A DNA stretch of 38,707 nt. Source: Phascolarctobacterium sp. GTDB lineage: Bacteria > Bacillota > Negativicutes > Acidaminococcales > Acidaminococcaceae. The first letter of the stretch is position 1. Every line of letters begins with the position of its first letter. A model generated the notes under the pieces. It did not search any database, was not told where the DNA came from, and saw only the letters and a list, made by a program, of their open reading frames with translations. Shown piece after piece: positions 4,961 through 31,329 of the stretch. Location: NCBI GenBank assembly GCA_017452325.1, contig JAFTMR010000013.1, positions 1 through 38,707 of the forward strand, written 5' to 3'. A program made the translations under genes and the position numbers.

Positions 4961-4974
4961 TCAGCAGGCTCCTT

Positions 4975-6006
4975 TCATGCTTCCTGTCCTAAGAAAGCTT
5001 CTACTTTATTCCAATCCAACTGTCCTTCTTCAAAAGGACGACGACGCATTCTGTGAGGCAGTACTAATTTCGCCGCCAGCTTCACGTCTTCCATTTCTAC
5101 TTGGGCGTGCCCATTGAAGGCAGCCAAGGTCAAAGCAGTTTTGATTACAGTAATATCAGCCCTGTGACCATCAACGCCCAGCTCTACGGCAAGCTTGGCA
5201 ACGGTTTCCAGAAGCTGGTCACTTATCGTAACGCTTGCCAATACTTCCCGCGCCTGCATAATTTTCTTTGCCAGTTCTTCCTGCTCGTCCTGATAGCCTG
5301 CGATAAATTCATCAGCATTATCTTCATAGGCAAGGCGACGTTTGATAACCTCCACCCTTTGAGCAGGGTCGTGTTCACCGGTTACCACAACGGAAAGCCC
5401 GAAGCGGTCAAGAAGCTGGGGACGGATGTCGCCCTCTTCCGGGTTCATAGTGCCAACCAGAACGAAGCGCGCCGGATGGGAATAAGAAACGCCTTCGCGC
5501 TCCACAGTGTTGATACCCATGGCAGCAGCATCCAGCAGTACGTCCACCACATGGTCATCCAACAGATTGATTTCATCTACATATAAAATATTACGGTTGG
5601 CTTGTGCCAAAATACCCGCTTCAAATTTCTTTTCACCATGCTTGATGGCGTGCTCAATATCCAAAGTACCAACTACTCTATCCTCTGTAGCACTAACAGG
5701 TAACTCTACCACACGCATGGGGATTTCTTCTACATAAATATTTGCGCCAGACACATGGCTTTTTGCACAATCATCGCAAAACAAGTTAGGATTATGAGGG
5801 TCACAATTAAATCTGCAACCATGGATAGCATCCATTGCAGGGAGCAGTTCTGCCAAAGCCCGCACTGCAGTTGACTTTGCTGTACCTTTTTCACCCTTAA
5901 TCAACACCCCTCCCAAAGCAGGATTAATTACATTCAAGATTAACGCCAATTTCATATCCTCTTGACCGACAATGGCGGTGAAGGGATAAACCGCTGTTCT
6001 TTTCAT
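4975..6006 (-). CDS. ChlI/BchI-like chelatase AAA+ ATPase
   Basis: 343 residues, first gene of a chlI-chlD-tonB1 unit. It carries Walker [10 protein letters not shown] (residues 38-46), Walker [13 protein letters not shown], the [21 protein letters not shown] segment and C-terminal [11 protein letters not shown], all typical of the small AAA+ subunit of magnesium chelatase and of its homologues working with CobN-type subunits. A four-cysteine cluster (C64, C68, C77, C80) in the first insertion could bind a metal ion. In the family the protein forms a hexameric ring with the D subunit and uses ATP to drive metal insertion by the large subunit. The start follows GAGAGGTAGAG. It has its own 19-bp-spacer promoter at 6058-6088, the same type as the cobN operon, so the three chelatase subunits are probably co-induced. 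Confidence 0.94.
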
Positions 6007-6057: not shown

Positions 6058-6088
6058 ATTATAAACTATATACCGCCTATATGCTCAA
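6058..6088 (-). promoter_or_regulatory. MerR-type promoter (19-bp spacer) for chlI-chlD-tonB1
   Basis: On the minus strand: -35 TTGAGC, spacer ATATAGGCGGTATATAGTT (19 bp), -10 TATAAT. The spacer holds an ATATA...TATAT dyad. Nine other promoters in the window share this layout, and the expected start site falls about 45 bp before the chlI-like ATG. Confidence 0.85.
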
Positions 6089-6151: not shown

Positions 6152-7177
6152 TATGGTTACTCTTTTCATGGCGCACTCACTCTTGTAAGCGACACACTCC
6201 CCACTGCCATACCAACGAGCGAAGCAGCCACCGCCACAGAGTTTGAAATCAGCGCACTCCTTGCAAAAGTGCATACTCTCTGAAATTTTCCGGCTTATCT
6301 TTTCTACAAGGGCAATGTCCAACCCGTCCTGCACATTGCCAATATAAAAATTAGCATCCCCCAGAAGGGAGGAGCAAGCGTAAATTTTACCGCTGGCATC
6401 TACAAAGGCAGCCTCACCGTTCATAGCATAGCAATGTCCAAACTGGCGACAGCTTTCCTTGCACAAAAACTTTGCCCTTTCCAGCTGGGAAATTTGAATT
6501 TTATAGCCTGCCATCCGGGCAAGCAGTTCCCCTCTGGCGTAAACCTCTTCCATTGCTTTATGCATCTGTGCTTCCGTTGGAGGAGTAAGCCCCCTGCCAC
6601 GCCCCTGCCCTCGCAATAAATCGAAGCCTATTTTACGCACGCACCCAACAAAATAGCCCATCTCCACAATGCCGGCAAGCTCTTCAACATTTTCTGCAGT
6701 GACCACGCAGGTCAAGCCACAGCCAATATTGTTACGCCTTAAAACTTCCAAGCCTTGCAAGATTAAACCAGTTGCCCCTTTGCCTTCCTTGGTCAAACGC
6801 AGTTTATCGTTTATATTGGGTTTGCCGTCAAGGCTTATGCCAATGGCTACCTTATTTTTAAAAAGGTACTTGGCAATTTCATCAGTCAGGAGGGAGGCGT
6901 TGGTCTGAATCTGTAAAATTGCAGGCAACTGTTCAGCTTGAACATAGTCCACCACCGCCTGCAGGGTTGCAAAATTTAGAAGTGGCTCGCCCCCGCTGAA
7001 CTGGATGATAAATTTTTCACCTTGGGGCAGGCTGCCCACCGCCAAGCGGACGGCGGCAAGGGCAGTTTCCTCAGACATTTTTTGTGTATTATGTTCTGCG
7101 GCGTAGCAGTAACGACAGGCAAAATTACATTGCCCCGTTAAGCTTAGCACCAAGTTTTTTATTTTAGGAGTTGGCAT
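6131..7177 (-). CDS. Radical SAM/SPASM protein
   Basis: 348 residues, last gene of the nif-like/cobN operon. The ATG at 7177 follows GAGGAG and overlaps the end of the CobN-like gene by 14 bp; the longer upstream frame is shadow. The radical SAM motif is CNFACRYC (C17, C21, C24), with FSGGEP at 60-65 and an ISLDG strand at 114-118. The C-terminal half has ten further cysteines (C239, C243, C249, C268, C305, C308, C314, C318, C328, C335) in the spacing of a SPASM domain, which holds two auxiliary [4Fe-4S] clusters. SPASM enzymes usually modify peptides or proteins (anaerobic sulfatase maturases, PqqE-like, thioether formers); a few act on small molecules. Here it could modify a partner protein of the system or the tetrapyrrole itself. 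The substrate cannot be read from the sequence. Confidence 0.9.
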   Translation of the reverse strand: MPTPKIKNLVLSLTGQCNFACRYCYAAEHNTQKMSEETALAAVRLAVGSLPQGEKFIIQFSGGEPLLNFATLQAVVDYVQAEQLPAILQIQTNASLLTDEIAKYLFKNKVAIGISLDGKPNINDKLRLTKEGKGATGLILQGLEVLRRNNIGCGLTCVVTAENVEELAGIVEMGYFVGCVRKIGFDLLRGQGRGRGLTPPTEAQMHKAMEEVYARGELLARMAGYKIQISQLERAKFLCKESCRQFGHCYAMNGEAAFVDASGKIYACSSLLGDANFYIGNVQDGLDIALVEKISRKISESMHFCKECADFKLCGGGCFARWYGSGECVAYKSECAMKRVTIKKLTGN

Positions 7178-10100
7178 CACTGCGCTCCTCAATCTCCCCT
7201 TCAATTGAAAGGTATAATTTTTGCAGCTCGCTCTTGGTTTCCGGCTTAGCGTTCCACAAACCACGCTGTTCTGCTTCCAAGAGGACTTCCGCCATTCTTT
7301 GCAATGCCCAAGGATTCACATCACGCAGCCATTCCTGCACCTTGGGGTCAAAGGTATATTTTTCTGCGTACTTTTCGTACATCCAATCTTCCATAACGGC
7401 GCTGGTTGCGTCCCATTGATAGCTGTGAGCAATCATATTCGCCATATCCGCCGCGCCCTTGTAGCCATGCTTCATCATACCCTCAATGTATTTGGGGTTA
7501 ATGGATTCACTGCGGAAGATACGCTTCGCCTGCTCCTGCACGCTAAACATCTTAACCTTACTTCTATCGGTACTGTCACCACAGTAGGAACGGGGCGCAC
7601 TACCTTTGATGCTGCGCACCGCCGCAATCATACCGCCATGATAAGCGTTGTAGTCGTCACTGGAAAGCATATTGGTTTCGTGGTTGTCTTCATTTTTAAT
7701 GGTAACATCCAGGCTACCCATCCGCTTGCGGAATTGTTGGGGCAAGAACTTGCCCTTAGTCTTGCCGCCGTAAGCGTGACCGCCCCAACGGACGTAAACA
7801 TCGGCGATATCGTCAATGGTTTCCCAGTTCTTAGCTTCAAGGAGAGCGGCAACGCCTGCGCCGTACACGCCCTGCTCGTCACCAAAAATTCTAAAGGCAG
7901 CTTGTCGCCAAGCTTCTTCCTTGGTCATACCCTCCGCTTCCAGCTCAGCGCTATCTGCCAGGATATGCTTACGCACATAGTTTAGCTCCACATCCTCATC
8001 CAAGCTACCGGCAAGGAGTGTTGCTTGGTCCAGCAGTTCCATAACCGTAGGCATGGTATCGCGGAACAAACCACTAATGCGTGCCGTAACGTCAATGCGG
8101 GGACGGCGCAGTTCATTCAAGGGAATGGGCTCCAAGCTGTTGACACGCATACTGCCAGCTTGATACACAGGGCGAATCCCCATCAGATAGAGGAACTCTG
8201 CAATACACTGACCATGACTGCGCATATTGGCACCGCTCCACAAAACGATACCGATATTTTCCGGATAGTGACCTTCTTCCGCAATGAAGCGCTCAATAAC
8301 CTGGTCACCCAAGGTTTTGCCAATCTCCCACGCCGCCGGAGTAGGCAGGGTACGCGGGTCAACGCCATAGAAGTTGCGACCTGTAGGCAGTAAATCTGCA
8401 CAGCCACTGGTGGGCGCACCGGAAGGCCCTGGTTCCACATACTGACCTTCAAAACCACGCAGCATGTTCTCCTGCTCTTGAGTAGTCAGCATCAAATTAG
8501 GATAAATACTTTCGCAGATGTAGGTGCAAACCTTGGTCAAGGCTTCCTTAAACTCTTCGTTCCCCTCCTGCACCCAAGGCAATGCCAAAACTTGGGACAG
8601 AGCTTCCCCGCCAAAGTCCTTACCTTGCAAAATGGTAATAATCTCTTGGCTCTGCTCCGTAATTTTATCAAGAAGCGCCGCATTGGTAATGTTCAGCGGT
8701 TCGTAGATAAGACTGCTGTTTTCCAACAGGTAGTAATAATCATAGCCGTAGTAATGGGCAATGGCTTGGCTTAGGCTGGGCACGTCACCATTGTTCAGAC
8801 GGGTAAGCATCCACAAATATTCCGTCAAGCCCTCATCAACAGGAGGTTGTCCCAAAATATGTAAACCTGTATGTACCTCAAGGTTCTTCAGATCCGTAAT
8901 GTAGTTGTGCAGTGCCAGCACATATTCGCCAAAGGGCTTACCTTCTTCATAGGGAACCTCGTCCTGCAAATTGGCAGCCGCAACCTTTTCCTTAACCAAG
9001 GCTTCCAAATTGGGCAGGTTCTCCGGCTGGGTAACTTCAAAGTGGACGTATTCATCCATAATCTTTTCCAGTTCTTCCAGCTCGTCGTACACCCCTGCCT
9101 TACTTTGAGGAGCAGGCAAATGCTCGATTAAGCAGGCAGCACCCCTGCGTTTTGCCTGGATACCTTCGCCGGTAATCGTAATATTATAAGGATAGATATT
9201 AACCAAATCACCTAACGCCAAGTCTGGATAGCAAGTGCAGTCCAAGCCTGCGTTCTTACCCGGCAACCATTCCAAGGAGCCATGGGTACCGATATGGGCA
9301 ACTGCATCCGCCTGCCAAATGTCGCGCACCCAATGATAGAAGCCCAAGTAATGATGGGTGGGCGCACAATAAGGAGAATGGTAAATTTTGCTAGGGTCAT
9401 CACCAAAGCCGCGGGGCGGTTGTACGGTGACAAAAACATTACCGTTCATAGTTCCCGGTACCAAAAGGTCGCCGTCATATTCCATAACGCTACCCGGTGC
9501 TTCGCCCCAGTCCTTGATAAGCTGCGCCTGTACCTTGGGAGCAAAGGTAGCAAAGAATTTTTGATACTCTGCTCCCGTAACCTTATTGGCTTCTGCAATT
9601 TGCTTTTCTGTCAGTAAATTCTTATCGTTGGTTGCGTTGGCAGTAAGCTCCTTGATAAATTCCTTAGTGTCCGCAGGAATGGCATCCACCTTGTAGCCAC
9701 GCTCCTGCATCGCCGCCAAAACTCTTCTGATACTTTCGATGGTGTCCAAGCCAATGGCACTACCAATATTGGAATTGCGAGGAGGATAGTTGTGGAAGAT
9801 GATGGCAATTTTTTTATCAGCATTTGCCTTGCGACGCAGGCTCGCCCATTTGCGTGCTTTGCTTACCATTCTTTGAACACGCTCCATGATGGGCAGATAG
9901 CGCACGTCCCCATTTTCCAGAACCTTTTTGTAGCCGATGGGTACCCCATGAATGGTACCGTCAAACTCCGGCAGGGAAACAGCAATGGAAACTTCCATGG
10001 GATTCATCCCCTCAAAGCTTTCCCGCCATTCTTCCAGCTCCGTCATAATTGTATAGCCTGCCAAAATGGGTACGTTCCATTTTTTGAAGTAGTCCACCGT

Positions 10101-10883
10101 AATCGTACCGCTACTACTCAAAGAAAACTTCATTACATTGATAAGGGCATCAATGGCAGCCACGCCATCCTTGCAAAAAAAGCGGTTGAACACTTCCGTC
10201 AAGCTGGGCATCCCCATTTCCTCAACGGGCATACCATTACTGAAAACACAGACGGCGTTCATACCCTGAGCTTCAATCTCTTCAACAGTTGCGCCTTGGT
10301 AGGTTAAATCTCCCCATACCCATTCGTCCCTGTAAAAAAGCATACCGATTGTCGGTTTGGCAGGGTCACAGAAATCAGCTTGGTATTCTGCCAAATCAGT
10401 ATAAACCTTTTGGGCACGAGGATGGTAAATGCCACACCAATGAATCGGGTCGGGAGCTTCCACGTCAGCGCCAACACCTTGCAGGCAGCCGTCCACATAC
10501 TGCCACAAATTATAGTAGTTACGCTCACCGCCAAAGGAGGAATACTGTTTTAAGGTTGCCAGCTGCTCCGGAGAAAAGCCGTATTTAAGCTCCCCCTCAT
10601 TAGTTCCGGCAGCGTCTATATAATAAGGAATCTTTTTGTCGTCTAAAAACTTTACTAAATTTTTCAGAAAGGGAGTATCCAGACCACTTCCCATCCATTT
10701 CAGAAGCACCACGTCCGTAGTGGTTAAGGTTTCCACCCATTTCTTATCCCATTGGGTTTGGTCCGTAATCCAATGGCAGGCGCAAGCAGAGCTTAGCTTC
10801 TGCTCTCGTTGCAAGCGTTCCACCGTTTGCTGCATCATCCCCATACGACGGATGACATTGGTTAAAAATAAAATCTTACTCAT
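7164..10883 (-). CDS. CobN-like large chelatase subunit
   Basis: 1239 residues, the usual size of the CobN/BchH large subunit that binds the tetrapyrrole. Recognisable family segments are GGERNYYNLWQYV (about residue 138), the signature HIGTHGSLEWLPGK near the middle with nearby THHYLGFYHWVRDIW, and the C-terminal block around NPWALQRMAEVLLEAEQRG. Homologues insert cobalt into hydrogenobyrinic acid diamide (CobN) or Mg into protoporphyrin (ChlH); HmuS of Bacteroidetes, a CobN-type protein, is linked to removal of iron from haem. Direction and metal are therefore open here. It lies between a FecCD-type permease and a radical SAM gene in an operon with nitrogenase-like genes, and its AAA+ partners are in the next operon, so imported rather than home-made tetrapyrrole is the more natural substrate. 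The start follows GAGGTAGAG. Confidence 0.93.
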   Translation of the reverse strand: MSKILFLTNVIRRMGMMQQTVERLQREQKLSSACACHWITDQTQWDKKWVETLTTTDVVLLKWMGSGLDTPFLKNLVKFLDDKKIPYYIDAAGTNEGELKYGFSPEQLATLKQYSSFGGERNYYNLWQYVDGCLQGVGADVEAPDPIHWCGIYHPRAQKVYTDLAEYQADFCDPAKPTIGMLFYRDEWVWGDLTYQGATVEEIEAQGMNAVCVFSNGMPVEEMGMPSLTEVFNRFFCKDGVAAIDALINVMKFSLSSSGTITVDYFKKWNVPILAGYTIMTELEEWRESFEGMNPMEVSIAVSLPEFDGTIHGVPIGYKKVLENGDVRYLPIMERVQRMVSKARKWASLRRKANADKKIAIIFHNYPPRNSNIGSAIGLDTIESIRRVLAAMQERGYKVDAIPADTKEFIKELTANATNDKNLLTEKQIAEANKVTGAEYQKFFATFAPKVQAQLIKDWGEAPGSVMEYDGDLLVPGTMNGNVFVTVQPPRGFGDDPSKIYHSPYCAPTHHYLGFYHWVRDIWQADAVAHIGTHGSLEWLPGKNAGLDCTCYPDLALGDLVNIYPYNITITGEGIQAKRRGAACLIEHLPAPQSKAGVYDELEELEKIMDEYVHFEVTQPENLPNLEALVKEKVAAANLQDEVPYEEGKPFGEYVLALHNYITDLKNLEVHTGLHILGQPPVDEGLTEYLWMLTRLNNGDVPSLSQAIAHYYGYDYYYLLENSSLIYEPLNITNAALLDKITEQSQEIITILQGKDFGGEALSQVLALPWVQEGNEEFKEALTKVCTYICESIYPNLMLTTQEQENMLRGFEGQYVEPGPSGAPTSGCADLLPTGRNFYGVDPRTLPTPAAWEIGKTLGDQVIERFIAEEGHYPENIGIVLWSGANMRSHGQCIAEFLYLMGIRPVYQAGSMRVNSLEPIPLNELRRPRIDVTARISGLFRDTMPTVMELLDQATLLAGSLDEDVELNYVRKHILADSAELEAEGMTKEEAWRQAAFRIFGDEQGVYGAGVAALLEAKNWETIDDIADVYVRWGGHAYGGKTKGKFLPQQFRKRMGSLDVTIKNEDNHETNMLSSDDYNAYHGGMIAAVRSIKGSAPRSYCGDSTDRSKVKMFSVQEQAKRIFRSESINPKYIEGMMKHGYKGAADMANMIAHSYQWDATSAVMEDWMYEKYAEKYTFDPKVQEWLRDVNPWALQRMAEVLLEAEQRGLWNAKPETKSELQKLYLSIEGEIEERSDANS

Positions 10884-11933: not shown

Positions 11934-12931
11934 AATTTATCACCTCGAAACACTTCCGGGTAAACTGCTTGCGCAAAATTTTCTATAGTATCCACAATGT
12001 GATGACTTGCCACATAGCGGTACTTATCCGAAACAAATTTTATCTGATTATTTTTGATAGCCTTAACATCCTTATAGGCAGGGTCAAATTTTATCTGCTT
12101 GGCGTAGCCGTCCAAGTCCTGCCTGTTATCGTAGTTCCAGGTGGGAAGAAGAAAAATATCCGGGTTAATACGAACCACCTGTTCCTTACTAATATAGTTG
12201 TTAGTATATTCGCTAGGTATTTGCGCCACACCGTTAACCACATGAGCCATAGTCAGCATATTGTCGATAAGGTCACCCTTGCGCCCCATGGCAGAAATAA
12301 AATTAAAGGCTACTACTGTTCTCCGCTTAGCTTCCGGAATTTGGGAAAGCTTTGCTTCCAGCTTTGCCATCCTCTGGTCCATCTGACGAATGATGGCTTC
12401 ACCCTTTTCTTTTTCGCCCACTGCTTCTGCCAGCTTCAACACCTTTTGCTGCATTTGCTCATAATTTTTGGGACGAGAAGCTACATAAACCTTCAAGCCC
12501 ATGGCCTCTAAGGAGCCAATCACCTCATTGCTCATAGCTGCGGACACCACTACCAAATCCGGCCGTACTGCCAAAACAGCTTCCGTATTTTCCTGTAGCT
12601 TGCAACCCACCTTGCGTGCCTGCTCCTTAGTAATGAAGGTAATCTCCGGGTCGCCTGCCCAACGGCTATAAGCAACTATTCTTTTCATATCCACTAAATC
12701 CGTAAGAATCTCATCCGTACCATAGGTCAGGGAAGCAATACGCTTAGGTTTTTCCTGAAAGCTCAGCCTTCTGCCAGCTTCATCAAGCACCTCATAGGCA
12801 AGCTCCCGCTGTGTTTGCTCCTCCTGCCCCATACTCCGTAGCTCATTCTGTGAGAGTGTTTCCCTGCCGCCGCAGCCACAGGCCATTACCAATAGTAGTA
12901 AACCCACGCAGATCAGCCATAGTCTTTTCAT
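11927..12931 (-). CDS. BtuF/FepB-type substrate-binding lipoprotein A
   Basis: 334 residues. A lipoprotein signal peptide (MKRLWLICVGLLLLVMACGC) ends at a lipobox Cys, so the mature protein is expected on the periplasmic face of the inner membrane. The body is a cobalamin/iron-siderophore class III binding protein (KRIASLTYGTDEILTDL, VRPDLVVVSAA, NPDIFLLPTWNYD). It overlaps the NifK-like gene by ATGA and the permease gene by a few bases, so binding protein and permease are translationally coupled. It is a paralogue of lipoprotein B at 17703-18731: both share GTDEIL.DLV.M.RI near the N-terminus and a C-terminal S.H.V......A.AVYPE.F. Ligand unknown; haem, corrinoid or another chelate would fit the family. 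Confidence 0.92.
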   Translation of the reverse strand: MKRLWLICVGLLLLVMACGCGGRETLSQNELRSMGQEEQTQRELAYEVLDEAGRRLSFQEKPKRIASLTYGTDEILTDLVDMKRIVAYSRWAGDPEITFITKEQARKVGCKLQENTEAVLAVRPDLVVVSAAMSNEVIGSLEAMGLKVYVASRPKNYEQMQQKVLKLAEAVGEKEKGEAIIRQMDQRMAKLEAKLSQIPEAKRRTVVAFNFISAMGRKGDLIDNMLTMAHVVNGVAQIPSEYTNNYISKEQVVRINPDIFLLPTWNYDNRQDLDGYAKQIKFDPAYKDVKAIKNNQIKFVSDKYRYVASHHIVDTIENFAQAVYPEVFRGDKFW

Positions 12932-14229
12932 TTGCTCACCTGCTTATCCAAAACGCTACGGATATATACATTCCATAATTTCTGTAACATATGAGCCGCT
13001 CCCCTAATACCCACAAAGGGAGTTTCCGTCAGCAGCACCTCTTCTGCCGCAGGATAGGCAATGGTGCAGCTTGTGAACCTTGCTCCCCTACGCCGCAGGG
13101 TAGAAGCTTCACTGCTGCTCCCCAGTAGCAGTACGTCTTCCACATTCTGCAAAATTCCTTCTATTTTAATAGCATCCCTGCCTGCAAGCAGCACTTCATC
13201 TGCCATATGGCAGTAAGTATTTTGTACATCATGCTGGCAAATCACAATAAGCTCGCCCATATCTGCCCATTCATTCCGCACCGCCTGCCCCATACATAAA
13301 GCCTGGGTTCCGTTGGCAGCTATTACCACCTTGTCAAACCAGATGCTTCCCCACAAACCGCGGTAATCATTCCCTAAAGCATTAAGCCGCTCTGCCTGCT
13401 GCTCACATTCATCCAAAACCACCTGTAAGTGGGAGCAGGGCAACACTTCGTTAATTTTTCTTAGCCACTTCTGCGTTCCTTGCAGGCCGTAGGGCAAGCC
13501 CGCCACCAAGTAGGGAGTTCCAAAGCGTTTTTCCAGATGTTGGGCAATTTTCAGACCCAGCTCCTCATTACAAACAATATTCAGCTGCGCCTTGCCAAGC
13601 TGCTGCAATTCTTCCAAGCTGCTTCCACCACCGGGAACAGCATTGATTTTGTAGCCCGCCTTCTCCAGTAAGCAGCAAAGCTCTTTTCTATCGGCAACAC
13701 CATTGTAGTAAAAATCATTGAGCCCCAGAAGGTTTACCCCCTTCTGCTCAGGCTCTACTTGTTCCTGCTCCTTGGCAAATTTATCAATAACAGCCAACGC
13801 CGCCTTGGTATAGCCTTCGGCAAAGCCACCTACCAAACCGCCGCAATCCATGGTCACAAAGGGATAGGGTAAATCCATCTTCCGCACAATTCCTGCCAAA
13901 TCGTCACCAATCAAACTCAAAGAACAGCTGCTTTCCACCAGCAGTAGGGATGGCTTGCGTCCGCTGTCCAGCAAACGCTGCAAGGTTGCCGTCAAAAACT
14001 TTTCCGTTCCGTAGACGATGGCGTTGTTATCCGGCTGGCAATCGTGAAAGCGTTCCCCCATATCGTACTTGGCGTGCTCCAAATTACGAAGCGCGTAGAA
14101 ATAACACCATAGCGGGCCGTTCACCAAAACCTCCGCTCCGGGAATCCCCGCCACGAAGGTTGCCGCACCGCTCAGAGCGCAGGTATCCACGCGGTGACAA
14201 ATATTTCCACATTGGTTATTGCTATACAT
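12928..14229 (-). CDS. NifK/BchB-like component of a nitrogenase-like reductase
   Basis: 433 residues. The nitrogenase component-1 fold is indicated by the N-terminal cysteine triplet C17 (TCALSGAA), C42 (GPLWC) and C102 (VESSCSLSLIGDDL) and by the FVGIRGAAHMLQKLWN C-terminus. The spacings of 25 and 60 are close to NifK, where they are 25 and 58. Extra cysteines C7, C11 and C64 are also present. Paired with the adjacent D-like protein it should form the heterotetramer that receives electrons from the NifH-like protein. Its length is below NifK and near BchB/BchN-type tetrapyrrole reductases. The start is ATG at 14229 after GGAGGAATGATTT and overlaps the upstream gene. No cofactor-maturation genes are nearby, so nitrogen fixation is unlikely; reduction of a tetrapyrrole ring is the favoured inference. 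Confidence 0.9.
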   Translation of the reverse strand: MYSNNQCGNICHRVDTCALSGAATFVAGIPGAEVLVNGPLWCYFYALRNLEHAKYDMGERFHDCQPDNNAIVYGTEKFLTATLQRLLDSGRKPSLLLVESSCSLSLIGDDLAGIVRKMDLPYPFVTMDCGGLVGGFAEGYTKAALAVIDKFAKEQEQVEPEQKGVNLLGLNDFYYNGVADRKELCCLLEKAGYKINAVPGGGSSLEELQQLGKAQLNIVCNEELGLKIAQHLEKRFGTPYLVAGLPYGLQGTQKWLRKINEVLPCSHLQVVLDECEQQAERLNALGNDYRGLWGSIWFDKVVIAANGTQALCMGQAVRNEWADMGELIVICQHDVQNTYCHMADEVLLAGRDAIKIEGILQNVEDVLLLGSSSEASTLRRRGARFTSCTIAYPAAEEVLLTETPFVGIRGAAHMLQKLWNVYIRSVLDKQVSK

Positions 14230-15514
14230 AAATCATTCCTCCACCGCTATGCCTGCTACACAGGGTTCTGTAAATTACCCGCATAAATTCTATTTCGCCC
14301 TTCGTCCCCACCTTGGGCAACATGGGCAAAAAGATTTGTTTAATATTTTTATCCTGCAATTCGTGAGTCGTCAGTACAAGCTCTGCCTCGTGCAGTAGTG
14401 CTTCCCCATCAAAATTAGTGTAAATGGGTACGTCCGTATGAAGCTTTAAGGCCTGCTCCATCTCTTGGCGATACTCTTCCTCATAGGCGTCCAGCAAAAT
14501 TATTCCCGTCAAATCCAGCTCCAGATTCTTAATGGTTCCTAAAACTGCATCAGGGTGGAAGTACATCAACCATCTGCCAATGCAAAGAACTGTCTTTTTA
14601 TTACGGGTAACAGGCAAAAACTGTTGCAAGCTTTGGCGCAGGGCTAATCTTTCCTGTACCAAGACCTCGCAGGCCTGGGTCTCACAATTTAACAGCTTGC
14701 CAATCTCTAAAAGCCAACGCTCCGTCTGCTGCCAGCCCACAGGGTAAATGCCGGGCAGGCTCTTCAAACCAAAACGTTCCTCTAAAATTTTCGTCAGCTT
14801 GTCAAAATCAGCGTGGGTTTGTCCCCTACCGCCTAAGACCACCATAGCCTCCGCACTGGTCAGCTTGGGTAAATCCTCAAGCTTCATATAACCGGGGAAC
14901 TGCCCAATGACATTTATCCCCATAGCATTCAAAAGTCTGGTAGCCTCCGTTGCGTAATGTCCCCAAGGCCCACCACTGTCACCTAGCAACACTACCGTTT
15001 TAGGTATGTGCTCCTGAGGCTGTAAGAATCTTTCAATCAGCTTATAGGTAATTTCAAAATAGCCCTCATAATATTCTCCGTCCAGGAAGCCATAGCTATC
15101 CACTGTCAGCACAGGCAGATTGTATTCTTCCTCCGCTTCCTTGGCAACTGCTTCCACGTCATCACCAATTACGCCTGCCACGCAGGAATTTCCTAGCACC
15201 AAACATTTAGGCTGATACTTTTCCACCGCAAAGGCAATGCACTGTTTCAACCGCTCCACTCCGCCAAAGATGGAATGTTTTTCTTCCAGCTGACTGGAAA
15301 GCAATGGTACGGAAGCACGTTCCTCCTGCCTGCCCTCACCCAAGCTGCGGTAATGGGTGTTAATATCCATAGTGCGGGCAATGTGGGCGCAAGCCCTTGG
15401 ACTGTGCAAAATTACCACCACGCCATCAGTATAGGCAACAGCCCGCCACACCCCCGGCATACTACAGCTGCAACTTTTCCTACTATTAATAAAGCGCTTT
15501 GTTTTAATTCCCAT
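14222..15514 (-). CDS. NifD/BchN-like component of a nitrogenase-like reductase
   Basis: 430 residues counted from the ATG at 15514; a TTG nine bases upstream is possible but poorer. Family marks are the cysteines C17 (CSCSMPGVWRA), C42 (HSPRACAHIA) and C111 (LGNSCVAGVIGDD). Spacings of 25 and 69 resemble NifD (26 and 66). C15 is an additional cysteine next to C17. With the K-like partner this gives six cysteines in P-cluster-like positions. The protein is much shorter than NifD, in the range of BchN and CfbD-like proteins. It overlaps the NifH-like gene upstream and the K-like gene downstream, so the three are made in step. Expected role: substrate-binding half of a two-component ATP-dependent reductase acting on an imported or intermediate tetrapyrrole. 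Confidence 0.9.
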   Translation of the reverse strand: MGIKTKRFINSRKSCSCSMPGVWRAVAYTDGVVVILHSPRACAHIARTMDINTHYRSLGEGRQEERASVPLLSSQLEEKHSIFGGVERLKQCIAFAVEKYQPKCLVLGNSCVAGVIGDDVEAVAKEAEEEYNLPVLTVDSYGFLDGEYYEGYFEITYKLIERFLQPQEHIPKTVVLLGDSGGPWGHYATEATRLLNAMGINVIGQFPGYMKLEDLPKLTSAEAMVVLGGRGQTHADFDKLTKILEERFGLKSLPGIYPVGWQQTERWLLEIGKLLNCETQACEVLVQERLALRQSLQQFLPVTRNKKTVLCIGRWLMYFHPDAVLGTIKNLELDLTGIILLDAYEEEYRQEMEQALKLHTDVPIYTNFDGEALLHEAELVLTTHELQDKNIKQIFLPMLPKVGTKGEIEFMRVIYRTLCSRHSGGGMIYV

Positions 15515-16310
15515 ATTTCTCAACCAGCTTTTCTAATTCTTCAAAAGTCATGGGCGTGGGCACAGTAAGATTAGCATTTTCTACCAGTACCTTGCTCAGC
15601 TCACGATAGATTTGTGCCTGAGCACTTTCCGGTGCGTATTGCAAAACTGTCTGGCGATTATTCTCTGCCTTGTTCACCACCACATCACGAGGAATGAAGG
15701 CAATGAGCTGGGTGTTCAGGCGTTTGGCAAATTCTTCCAGTAGATTCTTTTCGTTAGGAGTGTTGCGACTGTTCCCGATGATGCCGCCCAAGCGCACGCC
15801 ACCCCGCAGAGCAAAACGCTTGATACCCTTGGCAATATTGTTGGCTGCGTAAAGACTCATCAGCTCGCCGGAAGAAACAATGTAAATATCCGTAGCATAG
15901 CCTTCGCGAATGGGTACAGCAAAGCCGCCGCACACCACGTCCCCCAAAACGTCGTAGAGCAGTACATCCTCATCTTCAATCACATTCAAGGAGCGTAGCT
16001 TCTCCAAGGCAACAATGATACCGCGTCCTGCACAGCCCACTCCCGGTTCCGGCCCACCTGCTTCCACGCATTTAATACCGTTGTAGCCCAAGTGCACAAT
16101 ATCCTCTGCCAAAACCTCTTCCTTGTCACGCACCACGTCCAGAACCGTTTGGCTACAAATTCTCCCCAGCAGCAAACGCGTAGAGTCATTTTTAGGGTCG
16201 CAGCCAATTTGGCAAACCTTTAGCCCCTGGTCGCTTAACGCAGCGGACACATTCGCCGTTGTTGTAGATTTCCCGATACCACCCTTGCCGTAGATAGCTA
16301 TCTTCTTCAT
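15504..16310 (-). CDS. NifH/BchL/CfbC-like ATP-dependent reductase iron protein
   Basis: 268 residues, first gene of the long operon. It has the deviant Walker A GKGGIGKST (8-16), CDPKNDST (37-44), the cluster-ligand motifs GGPEPGVGCAGRG (C93) and DVLGDVVCGGFAVPI (C127), and GNSRN in the nucleotide-base region. C93 and C127 are the ligands of the inter-subunit [4Fe-4S] cluster in the NifH family, so a homodimer passing electrons to the D/K-like proteins is expected. The length matches NifH and BchL without their N- or C-terminal extensions. It sits 64 bp downstream of a 19-bp-spacer promoter shared with the divergent MerR gene. Assignment to the superfamily is firm; the specific substrate is not. 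Confidence 0.95.
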   Translation of the reverse strand: MKKIAIYGKGGIGKSTTTANVSAALSDQGLKVCQIGCDPKNDSTRLLLGRICSQTVLDVVRDKEEVLAEDIVHLGYNGIKCVEAGGPEPGVGCAGRGIIVALEKLRSLNVIEDEDVLLYDVLGDVVCGGFAVPIREGYATDIYIVSSGELMSLYAANNIAKGIKRFALRGGVRLGGIIGNSRNTPNEKNLLEEFAKRLNTQLIAFIPRDVVVNKAENNRQTVLQYAPESAQAQIYRELSKVLVENANLTVPTPMTFEELEKLVEKYGN

Positions 16311-16379: not shown

Positions 16380-16410
16380 ATTTTAAACTATATAGCGATT
16401 ATATAGTCAA
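16380..16410 (-). promoter_or_regulatory. MerR-type promoter (19-bp spacer) for the nif-like/cobN operon
   Basis: On the minus strand: -35 TTGACT, spacer ATATAATCGCTATATAGTT (19 bp), -10 TAAAAT. The dyad CTATATA...TATATAG is clearest here: AACTATATA and TATATAGTC are near mirror halves around GCGAT. It lies between the divergent MerR gene and the NifH-like gene, the classic place for a MerR operator. Confidence 0.88.
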
Positions 16411-16427
16411 GAGAGGTGGGAAGCTTT

Positions 16428-17276
16428 ATGTCCTACAAGGATTCCAAGGATAGCTACTTTACGGCAGGCGAGTTAGCTAATCTATTTGGTATTTCTAAGC
16501 AAACCTTACTGTACTATGACAAAATTGACCTACTCTCACCGGATTTTGTTTGTGAAAAAGGCTACAGGCATTACTCCATCCAGCAGTATCTGGATTTGGA
16601 AATTATTGTTAATCTACGCTCCTTCAATATCAGTATTGCCGATATCAAAGCCTATTTGACCAAGCGTAGCAAAAATGATTTTATGAACCTCGTTACGCAA
16701 AAGAAGCAGGAATGTATGAAGGTCATTAAAGAAAATGAGGCCATCATAAAATCCCTAAACGTAATTTACAACAACGCCAAAACGGAAAAGCCCTATGTCT
16801 TTAACAAGCCACTGCTCACCTTTCAGGAAGAACGCTTGCTGAGAGTGACAAAGGTGTCTGAAAAAGATGACGGCAAGGACAGAATAATCCTCTTCACCCG
16901 CCACGCCCAAACTGCTTTCCACAGCAAAAAGTCTCTGGAAAAGCACATGGGCTGGATAATTTCTCAGGAAGACCTTTTCGTTGAGAAAAATTCCCATCCC
17001 ACCAAGGCTTACTTTTCCTTCGTCCCCAATACTCCTGGGCATAAGAGCAAATCAAAAATTGAAGTGCTGCCTGCAGGACTGTTTCTGGAAATTTACTTTA
17101 AGGGAACCTATTACGAAAACTTTTCTAGCCTGGTAGACATTATCAATAACTTTATGGAGCTCAATGAGCTGGAAGCAGTGGGCGATATTTACATCCTCAC
17201 CATCGAAAACCATCTGTTCTACACCAACACTGACGATTACACCAACAAAATCTTCCTCGCAGTCAAAAAGAAATAA
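16428..17276 (+). CDS. MerR-family activator with GyrI-like effector domain
   Basis: 282 residues. I prefer the ATG at 16428 (AGAGGTGGG eight bases upstream) over a GTG at 16416. The N-terminus is a MerR winged helix: YFTAGELANLFGISKQTLLYYDKIDLL, then GYRHYSIQQYLDLEIIVNLR. A dimerisation helix follows (about 80-115), then a C-terminal domain of about 150 residues of the GyrI/BmrR effector type ending in an IYILTIENH-type strand. BmrR-class regulators bind flat hydrophobic ligands in this domain, which suits a tetrapyrrole. There is no cysteine-based metal site as in CueR or ZntR. It is the only MerR gene in the window and stands divergent to one of ten 19-bp-spacer promoters, so it is the obvious candidate for their activator. 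This link is inference. Confidence 0.88.
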   Translation: MSYKDSKDSYFTAGELANLFGISKQTLLYYDKIDLLSPDFVCEKGYRHYSIQQYLDLEIIVNLRSFNISIADIKAYLTKRSKNDFMNLVTQKKQECMKVIKENEAIIKSLNVIYNNAKTEKPYVFNKPLLTFQEERLLRVTKVSEKDDGKDRIILFTRHAQTAFHSKKSLEKHMGWIISQEDLFVEKNSHPTKAYFSFVPNTPGHKSKSKIEVLPAGLFLEIYFKGTYYENFSSLVDIINNFMELNELEAVGDIYILTIENHLFYTNTDDYTNKIFLAVKKK

Positions 17277-17324: not shown

Positions 17325-17642
17325 TTATTGGTGGCAATGACCGGAAGTGTTGCCGCTTCTTACTTTTTCAAAGATTGCGTGAGCTTCGTCAACGCTTTTG
17401 CCGTTAGCGAGAGCCTTTTGCATATGAATCATTGCGCTACGATATTTAGCGTGAGCTTCATCCTTGGGGATGGCGTCAATATTCTTCGGGTCGAACTCCA
17501 TAACTTTTTTGAAGATGGCATGGATTTCTTCAGAAGATTTGCCGGCAGCTTTAGCTGCTTCCACATGCTTCATTGCGCTTTCATAGCGATACTTAGCGTG
17601 GGGATCGTTGGGAAGTTCGTACTTGGGATGGGTACAGGTCAT
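17325..17642 (-). CDS. 105-residue His-rich duplicated helical protein, unknown function
   Basis: I do not recognise the family. The ATG at 17642 follows GAGAGGTGAATGTT. The protein has no signal peptide and no membrane segment, so it should be cytoplasmic and mostly helical. It is an internal duplication: residues 15-47 and 64-94 share the pattern HAKYR..(2)..AM.H....A...GKS..E.HAIF.KV. It has nine histidines (5, 15, 26, 41, 64, 73, 88, 102, 104), with a Cys-His pair at each end (MTCTHP and GHCHQ). Six His occupy equivalent positions in the two repeats. A metal- or tetrapyrrole-binding carrier, or a substrate of the radical SAM/SPASM enzyme, are both possible. It has a private promoter of the regulon at 17676-17706 and a terminator, so it may be made in large amounts. 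Confidence 0.85.
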   Translation of the reverse strand: MTCTHPKYELPNDPHAKYRYESAMKHVEAAKAAGKSSEEIHAIFKKVMEFDPKNIDAIPKDEAHAKYRSAMIHMQKALANGKSVDEAHAIFEKVRSGNTSGHCHQ

Positions 17643-17675
17643 AACATTCACCTCTCTTCTAATTTGGTAAAACCT

Positions 17676-17706
17676 ACTATACACTATATTCTAATCATAT
17701 AGTCAA
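17676..17706 (-). promoter_or_regulatory. MerR-type promoter (19-bp spacer) for the His-rich protein
   Basis: On the minus strand: -35 TTGACT, spacer ATATGATTAGAATATAGTG (19 bp), -10 TATAGT. The -35 hexamer contains the TGA stop codon of the upstream lipoprotein gene. Confidence 0.82.
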
Positions 17707-18809: not shown

Positions 18810-18840
18810 ATGATAAAGTATATAGTCGTTGTAGGGTCAA
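18810..18840 (-). promoter_or_regulatory. MerR-type promoter (19-bp spacer) for lipoprotein B
   Basis: On the minus strand: -35 TTGACC, spacer CTACAACGACTATATACTT (19 bp), -10 TATCAT. Only the downstream half of the dyad (CTATATA) is well kept. Confidence 0.8.
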
Positions 18841-18916: not shown

Positions 18917-18927
18917 GAGAATTGCTT

Positions 18928-20283: not shown

Positions 20284-22188
20284 TTAGAAGGAGTATTCAG
20301 CACCAACGAAGAATGCACGACCAGGCATTGCGTAATATTCTCCAGGTAGTCCATATTTAACATTAGACTCATTTGCATAAAATTTGTCAAACAAATTATT
20401 CACTTTAAAATAGAATTTATGATTTATATCTGGCTTATAATTTAATCCCAAGTCTATAATCCAATAATTGTCACACGGGAAATTCTTACCATTGGTTGTT
20501 TCATAACCCGGCTTATCAAATATACCATTAGCAGTTAAATTAGCATTAAATTTTTTCAGATTGTACCCTAAACTAATATCTACCATATGCTTCGGTATAT
20601 ATCCAAAGTTATTTACAACCTTTTGTCCACCATTTCCACTTTCCGTTTTCGTATAGGTATATGCAATAGAAGTATCCCATTTATCACTAAGTTTTTTCTT
20701 AAATTGAATATCAAAACCTTTTGCATCTTCTTCATCTTCTAGGTTATCATACTTATTTATTGCATAATTAAAAACTACTTTATCCTTTGTTTCGCGTTTG
20801 AAAATATGAGTTCTCATTGTAAAAGTATCATCAAATTTATGATTCAGACCAAATTCAACGGTTTCTCCACTTTCTGGATTCAGGCTGGAATCACCATACT
20901 CACTATTAAAAAGGGCATAAGTAGTAGGAGTATTAAAGAAAGTTCCGTAAGACACATAAACATTAGTATCATCATTAAATTTGTAGCCTACTTTACCATT
21001 ACCAGTAAATTCACTATCAAATCTGTCATTATTATCATAACGAGCACCCAAAGTAATATTTATTTTATCAGTAAATTCATGATAGTCTTGTAAATAAAAA
21101 CCAGTATTTCTTATCTTCTGACCATTCCCATTTGTATATCCAGCTCCCCAACTACTACCATCGAAACCTTCATTAAACTTATCTTCTTGATAATCAATAC
21201 CGCCTGTTAATGTATTATTATCACCAATATTCTTAGTTAATTGTTCATTCACAGAAATAGAAACAATATTAGTATCTCCCCAAGAGGGGTGTAATAATCT
21301 TTCATTTCTTGCCAAAGTTAATTTGTTTGTTAATGAATCATCAAAATTATAGTCAAAGGTTAGTCTATAACTTTCTAATTCATATGTACCTTCGTTAAGC
21401 CCTCCACCATAGGATGGAATATCATAATAAGAATACTCTGATTTAAATTTATCATATGCTAAGCTAACATTACCTTTATCACCGTTGTCCCCTAATTTAC
21501 GAGAAACCATCATGCTAATATTTCTAGAATCATTTGATTGCCTAATTTCTTCACCATTACCAGCTTCAGCATCACCAATCTTATCTTTACTAAATGCTAA
21601 TCTATAACTCCAATCTTTCTCGGTACCTTGAGTACTAATACCCATTCTAGTCTTGCTAAAATCACCACCCTCAATAAATAATTTGGTTTTATTTTCAGGT
21701 GTAGATTTAGTAATCACATTAATAACGCCGCCTTGAGCATCTGCACCATAAAGAGAAGAAGCAGAACCATGCAATACTTCAATGCGTTCAACATTATCCA
21801 TATCGTTAAGAAGCTCATATAAATTGGGCTCTGCCCCTTGATTCATACGGACACCATCAACCATAAACAGCACTTTATCCGAACCATTGATAACTATTTT
21901 GTTTTGAGTTGTATAACCAGCTCTACCATAATCACGTATTTGAACGCCAGGTACATCTTCCAAGGCTTCTTTTACATTTTGATAGTGTCTGTTTTCAATT
22001 TCTTCCTTTGTTACAACGCTAATATTAGCATTGGCATTGAACAGTTCAACCGGTGTTCTTGTCGCAGTTACTACATACTCGTCCAGAGTAAAGGTATCCA
22101 ATTTACTTGCGTGTACTGGTGTACCCCCCCATTGCACAGAACCGAGGATAAGCGCCGTTATAAGCATTGCTTTAGTCATCTTTTTCAT
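20284..22188 (-). CDS. TonB-dependent outer-membrane receptor 2 (BtuB-like)
   Basis: 634 residues from the ATG at 22188, preceded by TTTTAGGAGATGAAGTT. The signal peptide (MKKMTKAMLITALIL...VHA) is followed by the TonB-box region FTLDEYVVTATRTPVE. A plug domain has VKEALEDVPGVQIRDYG, KVLFMVDGVRMNQG, RIEVLHGSASSLYGADAQGG in part and VINVITK. The C-terminal barrel ends in FFVGAEYSF. The YVVTATRTP and VPGVQ text and the compact size resemble BtuB-type vitamin B12 receptors more than the other two receptors here, but the ligand is not proven. It has its own regulated promoter at 22330-22360 and a leader of about 135 nt in which I see no known riboswitch. The proposed partners are the FecCD permease and the two BtuF-like lipoproteins. 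Confidence 0.92.
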   Translation of the reverse strand: MKKMTKAMLITALILGSVQWGGTPVHASKLDTFTLDEYVVTATRTPVELFNANANISVVTKEEIENRHYQNVKEALEDVPGVQIRDYGRAGYTTQNKIVINGSDKVLFMVDGVRMNQGAEPNLYELLNDMDNVERIEVLHGSASSLYGADAQGGVINVITKSTPENKTKLFIEGGDFSKTRMGISTQGTEKDWSYRLAFSKDKIGDAEAGNGEEIRQSNDSRNISMMVSRKLGDNGDKGNVSLAYDKFKSEYSYYDIPSYGGGLNEGTYELESYRLTFDYNFDDSLTNKLTLARNERLLHPSWGDTNIVSISVNEQLTKNIGDNNTLTGGIDYQEDKFNEGFDGSSWGAGYTNGNGQKIRNTGFYLQDYHEFTDKINITLGARYDNNDRFDSEFTGNGKVGYKFNDDTNVYVSYGTFFNTPTTYALFNSEYGDSSLNPESGETVEFGLNHKFDDTFTMRTHIFKRETKDKVVFNYAINKYDNLEDEEDAKGFDIQFKKKLSDKWDTSIAYTYTKTESGNGGQKVVNNFGYIPKHMVDISLGYNLKKFNANLTANGIFDKPGYETTNGKNFPCDNYWIIDLGLNYKPDINHKFYFKVNNLFDKFYANESNVKYGLPGEYYAMPGRAFFVGAEYSF

Positions 22189-22329: not shown

Positions 22330-22360
22330 ATTATAGTGCATATAGTAGTTTTACAGTCAA
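22330..22360 (-). promoter_or_regulatory. MerR-type promoter (19-bp spacer) for TonB receptor 2
   Basis: On the minus strand: -35 TTGACT, spacer GTAAAACTACTATATGCAC (19 bp), -10 TATAAT. Both hexamers are near consensus, yet the spacing is 2 bp too long for unaided sigma-70 use. Confidence 0.87.
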
Positions 22361-22397: not shown

Positions 22398-22439
22398 AAA
22401 GCGTTAAAAACACCTTACTTCCGATGTTTTTAACGCTTT
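22398..22439 (-). terminator. Terminator of the cbiZ-like/TIM-barrel operon
   Basis: A perfect 15-bp stem AAAGCGTTAAAAACA / TGTTTTTAACGCTTT directly after the TIM-barrel stop. It also separates that operon from the receptor 2 promoter. Confidence 0.82.
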
Positions 22440-22444
22440 ATTTT

Positions 22445-23401
22445 TTATCTTGCCATCAATTTTTGCTCTTGCTTAATGTAATTTTGCAGCTCTTGCATAG
22501 TTCCGTAGAACAATTCGTGGACTAGGTATGTAGGAGCTATATACTCAACAAATTCTTTGAGAGGAGCTTCCCTAAAAATACGGTGCTGGTCTATTTTGCC
22601 AACGTGCTGTAAAATTTCGCCCATGGTAATCCCTGTTGGCATTGATCCGATGGCACTCTTTTGGTACGCTCCTGAAAGGGAACAGCTAAAGTGCATACCC
22701 TTTATTAAATTTTTATTGCTTCCTAAATTTGCAACCACCCTTTTGATGTACTGCAAGGCTTCCTGCTCGGTGTGTAAGTCCATATTCGTACTCATCAGGT
22801 GTCCGCTGTCCAGCATAATCCCCACATTGCTCTTGTTCAATTTGCTAAAGAACTTGTCCACCAGCTTGGGATTAGTAAGCGTCAGCCCTGGCCACCACAA
22901 ATTTTCAAACAGCACCGTTACGTCATCAGGCACACAACTGCTAATGCTATTGAACACTTCCACCGTACAATCGATAATCTGCTCGTCGTCATAGATGAAC
23001 TTTCTCGTAAAGGCTTCTTCCAAGCCACAATGACTAACGTGCCACACCAAATATTCCGGCTTCACCGCAAGGGAAGCAGTAATATTCTTTTGGATAACCT
23101 CTAACCATTGCTCCTGATTAGCAGCACCATTAAAATACGCTTGCATATCCTGCGCACTTTTATGGTTCTTCGCCAGCTCTTCCTTATTATCTATCCAAAA
23201 ATCTAACCAGTAAGGCCAGTACTTTAAATGTACACCTGTGGCACATTCAGAATAATCTTCCTCATAGGGCTTGGTGTCGTAAACGTACAGCTCTACCCCG
23301 TCAAGATTAGTATCCTTCAAATAGCCTGCCATGCCTCCGGGATAGGAAGCTATTTCTTCTTTATAACCATGGACAGGACAATAATTTATTAGTTGCTTCA
23401 T
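22445..23401 (-). CDS. TIM-barrel protein (AP endonuclease 2/xylose isomerase-like family)
   Basis: 318 residues, soluble, no signal peptide. The fold is suggested by alternating strands and helices with conserved acidic and histidine positions: VEYLVWHVSH-type text at about residues 115-122, VLFENLWWPG near 165, GIMLDSGHLMSTN near 195 and KGMHFSCSLSG near 235. These match the E...D.GH...H metal-site pattern of the family, which contains sugar isomerases, endonuclease IV and various epimerases. It starts 12 bp after the CbiZ-like stop, so the two share the regulated promoter at 24527-24557. No TIM-barrel protein of this type has a role in corrinoid or haem salvage that I know of, so its function in the system is open. 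It could process a side-chain fragment released by the CbiZ-like enzyme. Confidence 0.8.
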   Translation of the reverse strand: MKQLINYCPVHGYKEEIASYPGGMAGYLKDTNLDGVELYVYDTKPYEEDYSECATGVHLKYWPYWLDFWIDNKEELAKNHKSAQDMQAYFNGAANQEQWLEVIQKNITASLAVKPEYLVWHVSHCGLEEAFTRKFIYDDEQIIDCTVEVFNSISSCVPDDVTVLFENLWWPGLTLTNPKLVDKFFSKLNKSNVGIMLDSGHLMSTNMDLHTEQEALQYIKRVVANLGSNKNLIKGMHFSCSLSGAYQKSAIGSMPTGITMGEILQHVGKIDQHRIFREAPLKEFVEYIAPTYLVHELFYGTMQELQNYIKQEQKLMAR

Positions 23402-23413
23402 CTTAAATTCACC

Positions 23414-24499
23414 TTAAACAGCTTGGTCAGCTACAATTTTATTGAACAGAGCCTTCCAGCTCGCCAACATTCCCTCAAGATTTGCTTGGGTAATTTGCTC
23501 GTTTCCTACATTATAATAGGTAGCTAATGTATCAAGCAAGCTTTGTCCTGCTAGCTGCATTTCTTCCTCACTGATAAGCTGCCACAAAAATTGATCCAAC
23601 AGGTGAATATACAAGGAAGTGTAGGTGAGCATTGCCTTGTCCTTTGCCAAAGCTTCTGCTGCGAGTAGGTACACAGGCTTCACTTCCGCCTTGGTGCTGG
23701 CTTGGTATTCTGCCCACATACCTCCTGGCAAAATTCCAAAGCGTTTTAAACGGCGGAACACATTGTGCTGAAAGTCAGCGTTCAAGCCTGCCTGCTTTTC
23801 CAGTGCCCGCTTCACCGCTTTAGTAACAACCTTGCCGATCAGCTCGCCAATCTTGGAATGCTTGCCAGTGCTTTCAAAATACAAGCTGCTTTGGGGATTT
23901 GCTACGATAATGGTCTGGTCCGTACCGCTTCCCGTCGCTAAGCCAGTAGAGTAATTGCTACCGGCAAGCAGTTCCTGAATGGCAGCAGTCTTCGCTTCGG
24001 TACAGGTTACCAGCGCGCGAGCCAATGCTCCCGGCGGCATATCGCAGTCCAAAACCAGCATAATGTTAATAGTACCGCACTTGTCCAAACGCTCCATAGG
24101 TTTGTAATAATCGGAAGGGTCACCTACGCGCCCACCATTAGTTTCGATACCGCCTGTTACGATGGCAGTAACGGTCAGCTCCCTGTAGGTAAGCTTTTCC
24201 ACAACGGCGTTTTCCATACTGGCAGCAGTCCCCATGCCCGTAACAAGGTCCGGGTTCAGGGCAAGACGCTTGGAAATCAAACGCATATGCTCCACGTAAG
24301 TATCTGCCAAAACCTCGCAGGGCATACCGGAGCCTTGTTTGGCATCATAGTTATAAACCGCAAGGTAATTCTCGTGGTAGCCACCGTTGTAGACGGAGGT
24401 ACTCAACACCTTACGCTTATCATTAAAGAAAATCACAATACTTTTATCATAAAAATATACCTTATCCCCTGTAGACAGGGTGCAAATTTGTTCAGCCAT
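23414..24499 (-). CDS. CbiZ-like adenosylcobinamide amidohydrolase with C-terminal extension
   Basis: 361 residues from the ATG at 24499 (GAGGAGAAGGGT upstream). The CbiZ domain occupies roughly residues 1-235: GMGTAASMENAVV, TGGIETNGGRVGDP, GTINIMLVLDCDMP, TCTEAKTAAIQEL and TGLATGSGTDQTIIV are the usual conserved blocks. CbiZ cleaves the amide bond between the corrin ring and the aminopropanol arm, turning adenosylcobinamide or pseudo-B12 into adenosylcobyric acid for remodelling. About 120 further residues follow, helical by appearance, which I do not recognise and which ordinary CbiZ proteins lack. The gene has its own regulated promoter. It is the best hint that the imported ring is a corrinoid, but the extension and the unusual partners allow a different amide substrate. 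Confidence 0.85.
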   Translation of the reverse strand: MAEQICTLSTGDKVYFYDKSIVIFFNDKRKVLSTSVYNGGYHENYLAVYNYDAKQGSGMPCEVLADTYVEHMRLISKRLALNPDLVTGMGTAASMENAVVEKLTYRELTVTAIVTGGIETNGGRVGDPSDYYKPMERLDKCGTINIMLVLDCDMPPGALARALVTCTEAKTAAIQELLAGSNYSTGLATGSGTDQTIIVANPQSSLYFESTGKHSKIGELIGKVVTKAVKRALEKQAGLNADFQHNVFRRLKRFGILPGGMWAEYQASTKAEVKPVYLLAAEALAKDKAMLTYTSLYIHLLDQFLWQLISEEEMQLAGQSLLDTLATYYNVGNEQITQANLEGMLASWKALFNKIVADQAV

Positions 24500-24526
24500 A
24501 CCCTTCTCCTCAAACATTTTCTTTTA

Positions 24527-24557
24527 ATTTTAAAGTGTATAGCTGTTGTACGGTCAA
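24527..24557 (-). promoter_or_regulatory. MerR-type promoter (19-bp spacer) for the cbiZ-like operon
   Basis: On the minus strand: -35 TTGACC, spacer GTACAACAGCTATACACTT (19 bp), -10 TAAAAT. It resembles most closely the promoter of lipoprotein B. Confidence 0.82.
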
Positions 24558-24590: not shown

Positions 24591-24624
24591 AAAATAGGCG
24601 TAGCCAAAAGCCACGCCTATTTTT
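24591..24624 (-). terminator. Terminator of the P1B ATPase gene
   Basis: Stem AAAATAGGCGTaGC / GCcACGCCTATTTT with a 5-nt loop immediately after the ATPase stop codon, followed on the minus strand by a short AT-rich tract. Confidence 0.75.
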
Positions 24625-30578: not shown

Positions 30579-30609
30579 ACTGTAAAGTATATACCCGCTA
30601 TATTGTCAA
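30579..30609 (-). promoter_or_regulatory. MerR-type promoter (19-bp spacer) for the orphan transcript
   Basis: On the minus strand: -35 TTGACA, spacer ATATAGCGGGTATATACTT (19 bp), -10 TACAGT. The dyad is well kept (ATATA.CGGG.TATAT). Confidence 0.8.
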
Positions 30610-31298: not shown

Positions 31299-31329
31299 AT
31301 TCTAAGCCATATAGCGACTTTACTGTCAA
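31299..31329 (-). promoter_or_regulatory. MerR-type promoter (19-bp spacer) for the frameshifted small gene
   Basis: On the minus strand: -35 TTGACA, spacer GTAAAGTCGCTATATGGCT (19 bp), -10 TAGAAT. The spacer differs from the family-3 binding protein promoter at only four positions. Confidence 0.8.

Follow-up and report, generated by a model that had tools for sequence, protein, structure and literature searches.

A CbiZ-like protein and a TIM-barrel partner as a candidate corrinoid tail-trimming pair in a MerR-type regulon of Phascolarctobacterium

Introduction

The closest described system to the locus analysed here is an operon of Dehalobacter restrictus, reported in 2015, which holds CbiZ, CobN and Mg-chelatase subunits and is induced by corrinoid starvation. 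Under that condition the proteins of this operon-2 rise 46-fold on average (PMC4285132). Related single proteins have also been described, among them CbiZ of archaea and Rhodobacter (papers cited in PMC3541065), CbiR of Akkermansia (PMC7733943), the heme de-chelatase HmuS (PMC12583661), and an alpha-ribazole transporter and kinase (PMC6461909). Judged from literature listings, PMC4285132 was the only close match for combinations of nitrogenase-like, CobN, CbiZ and MerR genes.

The window is the whole stretch of DNA that was analysed, 38,707 nucleotides of Phascolarctobacterium sp. (assembly GCA_017452325.1, contig JAFTMR010000013.1). It encodes CbiZx, a CbiZ-domain protein with a C-terminal extension, followed by a TIM-barrel protein, here called TIM. 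A first-pass annotation had suggested for the pair a corrinoid remodelling or degradation route not described before. That claim to novelty is not supported, as an operon of CbiZ with CobN and Mg-chelatase genes, induced when corrinoid is scarce, had already been published (PMC4285132). What is added here is the promoter common with NifHDK-like genes, the TIM clade, and a tandem of promoter and riboswitch. Comparisons within the window's family draw on 59 genomes from 18 genera. Scans of viral contigs showed no relative.

CbiZx and its C-terminal extension

CbiZx is encoded on the reverse strand at 23414..24499 (361 aa), although the open reading frame could begin at 24517. Roughly 10 bp separate the latter ATG and the promoter-like element at 24527..24557, whereas the MAEQ... 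start at 24499 is immediately preceded by GAGGAGAAGG; 24499 is therefore preferred. In a Pfam search, the CbiZ domain (PF01955) covers residues 31-235 of the 367-aa frame (E=4e-55; 187 bits, with the cut-off at 27), which bears out the CbiZ assignment of the first-pass annotation. Twenty-six positions are conserved in at least 90% of long and at least 75% of short CbiZ rows, the short percentages being taken over five rows, four real and one artefact in which a masked stretch was read as alanines (L155_4344). By its Pfam score and by these positions, CbiZx is a member of the CbiZ family. It falls outside CbiS (NF038002), scoring 63.5 bits against a cut-off of 250 and matching only model positions 2-196 of 335.

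The stretch after the CbiZ domain comprises about 130 residues, close to the 120 given originally. Its description as an unrecognised extension has stood up to a domain search: Pfam gives no match up to E=1, NCBIfam no specific one up to E=0.01, and the PDB sequences no credible one (best E=0.39). Single-sequence structure prediction places helices in the extension at very low confidence (mean pLDDT 36.7 and 38.0).

The extension is found in all 49 aligned long CbiZ homologues, defined as those scoring above 200 bits on a long-form profile built here; one of them (L037) is cut by a contig end. Within it R256 and R259 are kept in every long row, and Q250, G261, W268, H305, D308 and W312 in 94-96%. 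The four real short proteins lack it. Long-type matches above 200 bits occur in about 33 of 398 sampled Bacillota genomes. For 31 long CbiZ genes fetched from outside the window's family, a FecCD gene lies within 4 kb in 17 cases and CobN within 9.5 kb in only 12, while 14 have no transporter gene matching the profiles used here. Restriction of the extension to CobN/NifHDK neighbourhoods is thus rejected. Since it also occurs at loci with neither CobN nor NifHDK genes nearby, the extension marks the long CbiZ subfamily and not the window, and it probably serves as an accessory or contact domain specific to that subfamily.

The TIM-barrel protein

TIM (22445..23401, reverse strand, 318 aa) begins 12 bp after CbiZx, and both this gap and the AP-endonuclease-2 type had been correctly noted at first pass, the Pfam model AP_endonuc_2 (PF01261) being reached narrowly at 31.7 bits against 31.1. 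Nine positions are invariant in an alignment of 12 sequences (H58, H121, E166, D198, H201, H237, D271, H273 and E296); we take them to correspond to the metal ligands of endonuclease IV.

The barrel is not CbiR. TIM gives no match to the CbiR model (NF041277, cut-off 105 bits) at E 0.01, and none of the 59 family genomes holds a protein above that cut-off, which Akkermansia CbiR passes with 249.6. The Akkermansia protein, located through its cobT locus, is conversely not recognised by the TIM profile. In the family of an Akkermansiaceae MAG, 60 genomes searched without a positive control gave 0 matches to the TIM profile; CbiR, later found in three of them, escapes that profile. Profile comparison with single proteins gives TIM a 93.6% probability of similarity to a deoxyribonuclease-IV-like protein and 93.3% to an isomerase-like one, against a negligible 0.4% for CbiR.

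TIM occurs in 32 of the 59 family genomes, frequently in two copies, and its clade extends over the window's Negativicutes-type class, other Bacillota and Fusobacterium. Five weak TIM matches (L071-L075, 22-29 bits), taken to be other AP_endonuc_2 proteins, were left out, as were partial matches wherever a longer match of the same gene was listed. Co-occurrence, proposed at first pass as a check, shows that the pairing is not obligatory: TIM is the immediate neighbour of CbiZx in 10 of 18 family loci, the window included (otherwise it is elsewhere, absent or past a contig end), and 8 of 17 TIM loci outside the family (L082, L083 and L086-L091 among L080-L096) have no neighbour matched by the profiles used. 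The second copy in the window's own genome (L079:9444-10400, contig C75) overlaps a BtuF-like gene, and neither a MerR-type element nor a cobalamin riboswitch was found there.

Could TIM be an unrelated metal enzyme, a sugar isomerase or DNA-repair-like protein that merely shares a transcript with CbiZx? Its profile affinities lean this way, and several copies have no corrinoid genes around them, those of Fusobacterium and Acetoanaerobium lying among unrelated genes. We nevertheless regard this as very unlikely. TIM adjoins CbiZx in more than half of the family loci, its second copy overlaps the BtuF-like gene, it stands beside BtuF/FecCD in L080 and L084, and a cobalamin riboswitch lies upstream of it in L081. 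It also scores far under the deoxyribonuclease IV cut-off (NF002199, 16 bits against 315). Lower-ligand operons of family f41 add to this: in 5/5 genomes TIM comes last, after BzaB-like, CobT, ECF S-component and AIRS-like genes, and cobalamin riboswitches are nearby in all three scanned loci. The f41 family matches were run for L092 and partly for L093, where a PilZ gene intervenes. We take the S-component and AIRS-like genes to be the alpha-ribazole transporter CblT and kinase CblS. TIM thus remains, in our preferred reading, a protein that probably opens the nucleotide loop of cobamides. Because the TIM profile does not recognise CbiR, this CbiR-like role is drawn from superfamily and gene context, and the clade may represent an as yet unassigned hydrolase of cobamides or alpha-ribosides.

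A common MerR-type promoter

Regulon genes are preceded by a 31-bp element in which 19 bp separate TTGAC-like and TATAAT-like hexamers, as is usual in MerR-type promoters. Weight matrix and pattern scan place it, on the reverse strand, before the CbiZx-TIM pair (24527..24557, 19-bp spacer), the NifHDK-CobN transcript (16380..16410), the BchI-BchD genes (6058..6088), the second BtuF-like gene (18810..18840) and the TonB receptor (22330..22360). The last site sets the receptor start nearer 22188. The matrix was built from six window sites picked by eye. It recovered four further sites (6058, 17676, 30579 and 31299) at 19.2-30.2 bits, the BchI-BchD site among them, whereas ten simulated windows scored 14.8 at most; matches of 11-16 bits were not counted, including one at 6801 whose 15.9 bits exceed the simulated maximum. 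A whole-genome pattern scan gave 12 sites against 0 for a control pattern, 9 of the 12 inside the window (binomial p ~2e-13, optimistic since the pattern was drawn from window sites).

In relatives the element lies 15-71 bp 5' of CbiZx in L024, L025 and L029, directly before its start in L026, and farther upstream in L028. Most other family loci carry it before NifH, NifD, rSAM, BchI or TonB genes, and in L080 it is found 15 bp before TIM. It was not found in L032, L038, L079 or L085, nor in nine scanned loci outside the class. The presumed binder of the element is the MerR-family regulator on the forward strand at 16416..17276 (Pfam MerR_1).

The first-pass annotation had placed the pair under the same regulator as the CobN- and NifHDK-like genes. 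The promoter sequences support a common regulator for the pair and the NifHDK, BchI, substrate-binding protein (SBP) and TonB genes, but transcription of the pair together with CobN and NifHDK is rejected. The pair has its own promoter-like element and lies between an inverted repeat at 24591-24623, which probably ends the upstream gene, and a terminator-like hairpin on the reverse strand at 22398..22439; it therefore appears to form its own transcription unit.

Several other features were seen in and around the regulon. Strong elements at 30579-30609 and 31299-31329 have no clear large gene downstream, and a 106-aa ORF of no family (30672-30992) lies between them. A 119-aa protein at 17325-17684 stands behind a weaker element and has a sub-threshold carboxymuconolactone-decarboxylase match. 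Two alike ATPase genes without the element (18922-20151 and 15-902), presumably DUF4143-like, lie inside or beside the regulon on the other strand, and two relatives carry the former at 97% identity. A further MerR-family gene of the same type (L215:1903-2763) sits beside a TonB receptor with its own element.

Chelatase and nitrogenase-like neighbours and the corrinoid link

The regulon includes, all on the reverse strand, NifHDK-like genes (12928..16310, NCBIfam matches), a CobN-like chelatase large subunit (7164..10883, TIGR02257, 904 bits against a cut-off of 822), BchI- and BchD-like chelatase subunits (3029..6006, family matches) and a BtuB-like TonB-dependent receptor (20284..22188, TIGR01779, 194 bits, below the 600 cut-off). 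We know of no assigned substrate for clusters that combine a CobN-like chelatase with NifHDK-like genes. CbiZx is present in 20 of the 59 family genomes (two matches being short fragments) and CobN in 29. CobN accompanies CbiZx in 19 of these 20 and occurs in 10 of the remaining 39 (Fisher p = 2e-7, uncorrected for shared ancestry). In 17 of the 20 it lies within 15 kb on the same contig, which supports the link to the CobN/NifHDK genes drawn at first pass. The exceptions are G024, with the two genes on different contigs, G032, with a 3.4-kb contig, and G033, with a 3.3-kb contig and no CobN found.

No cobalamin riboswitch was found in the window, nor in L029-L031, L036, L039, L040, L025 or L026. 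Riboswitches in relatives and in the window's own genome nonetheless back the corrinoid theme of the first-pass annotation. In the own genome a MerR-type element (C103:42814-42844) stands immediately before a cobalamin riboswitch (L214:12622-12795), followed by a run of TonB, BtuF-like, ABC ATPase and CbiK-type genes. The CbiK-type chelatase in this run (L214:6873-7880) has an N-terminal signal-like stretch. The relative L028 shows the same tandem before TonB and BchI/BchD. Cobalamin riboswitches also accompany 7 of 11 CobN-linked long-CbiZ loci outside the family (L081, L127-L130, L132, L134, L142, L145, L146 and L149), being absent from L127-L130. CbiZ, cobalamin riboswitches and the common MerR-type promoter in one regulon make corrinoids the first substrate to test for CobN/NifHDK-like clusters.

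Another amidated or metallated tetrapyrrole, F430-like or heme-derived, with CbiZx as a divergent amidase, is the least probable of the alternatives. TonB receptors score against heme and siderophore models too, the NifH-like protein is near both the CfbC and NifH cut-offs, and the window itself is without a riboswitch. These points are met by the riboswitches of relatives and of the own genome's regulon, by B12-type transporters adjoining long CbiZ, and by the published corrinoid response of a matching operon (PMC4285132).

Corrinoids are accordingly the substrate we favour, which leaves the question of what is done with them. The own genome encodes cobyric acid synthase, CbiA-, CbiD-, CbiF- and CobD-like proteins and CbiB, and is therefore a predicted cobamide producer; CbiB accompanies CbiZx in 19 of 20 family genomes. 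With cbi genes and a CbiK-type chelatase at hand, CobN is not obviously needed for synthesis. This is one argument for corrinoid dismantling, in which the tail would be stripped, CobN, BchI and BchD would remove or exchange cobalt, and the NifHDK-like reductase would reduce the ring, as a cobalt-harvesting or corrin-editing route analogous to HmuS acting on heme. The pair's place in one regulon with CobN and NifHDK, the CobN linkage in 17 of 20 CbiZx genomes, and the removal of iron from heme by the CobN relative HmuS (PMC12583661) speak for it as well. We consider it unlikely all the same. The D. restrictus version is induced when corrinoid is scarce, which fits saving better than destroying (PMC4285132). 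The HmuS motif LSLDHxxEFMGG was not seen when the translation of the CobN-like protein at 7164-10883 was read by eye, and in the limited stretches covered, 10 of the 11 CobN-linked long-CbiZ clusters outside the family gave no NifHDK match nearby.

Proposed function of the pair

The observed domains, conservation, common promoter, genomic linkage and riboswitch linkage lead us to favour, with some reserve, a reading of the pair as a corrinoid tail-trimming module within a MerR-controlled regulon for corrinoid uptake and processing. Cobamides would enter through TonB receptors and the BtuF/FecCD transporter. TIM, as a metal-dependent hydrolase, would open the nucleotide loop and release the lower-ligand riboside, a reaction like that of CbiR by a protein distinct from it. 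CbiZx, to judge from its conserved CbiZ domain, would cut the amide that holds the aminopropanol arm and yield cobyric acid; the order of the two reactions is likewise conjectural. CbiB could then rebuild the arm, and because the own genome encodes it, cobamide remodelling is the default outcome.

Remodelling alone does not account for CobN and NifHDK in the same regulon. The products of the pair may be remodelled, or may pass to ring or cobalt processing by CobN/NifHDK, and whether these enzymes act on products of CbiZx and TIM is the most interesting question raised by the locus. The first-pass interpretation as a whole is thus partly supported, with side-chain removal coupled to further ring processing a possible component. 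In its fullest and doubtful form, the pair would be the entry step of an anaerobic pathway of corrinoid dismantling or corrin editing under one MerR regulon: TIM would represent a second, independent lineage of cobamide loop hydrolases, and CbiZx would pass cobyric acid, through its C-terminal domain, to CobN-BchI-BchD and an ATP-driven NifHDK-like reductase. If this is true, a corrinoid would be the substrate of a nitrogenase-like enzyme.

Comparison with known systems

HmuS resembles the window's CobN in being a CobN-superfamily protein from the tetrapyrrole uptake operon of an anaerobe (PMC12583661). The window differs in having CbiZ, NifHDK and BchI/BchD subunits and in the HmuS family motif not being seen. 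Akkermansia CbiR shares with TIM the AP_endonuc_2 barrel, conserved metal-type residues and a cobamide gene setting (PMC7733943). TIM nevertheless stays below the CbiR model throughout the family and has negligible profile similarity to CbiR. CbiZ of archaea and Rhodobacter (PF01955; papers cited in PMC3541065) has the amidohydrolase domain and presumed reaction of CbiZx. Unlike CbiZx, the short CbiZ rows of our alignment, which does not include those characterised proteins, have no C-terminal extension.

Operon-2 of D. restrictus PER-K23 is most like the window, combining a transporter, CbiZ, CobN and Mg-chelatase subunits, but it has a cobalamin riboswitch in place of the MerR promoter and two CbiZ copies (PMC4285132). 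Unlike the window, the D. restrictus-type operon matched neither TIM nor NifHDK within the stretch covered. L132, equated with operon-2 by its matching gene order only, encodes a long CbiZ with the same extension as CbiZx.
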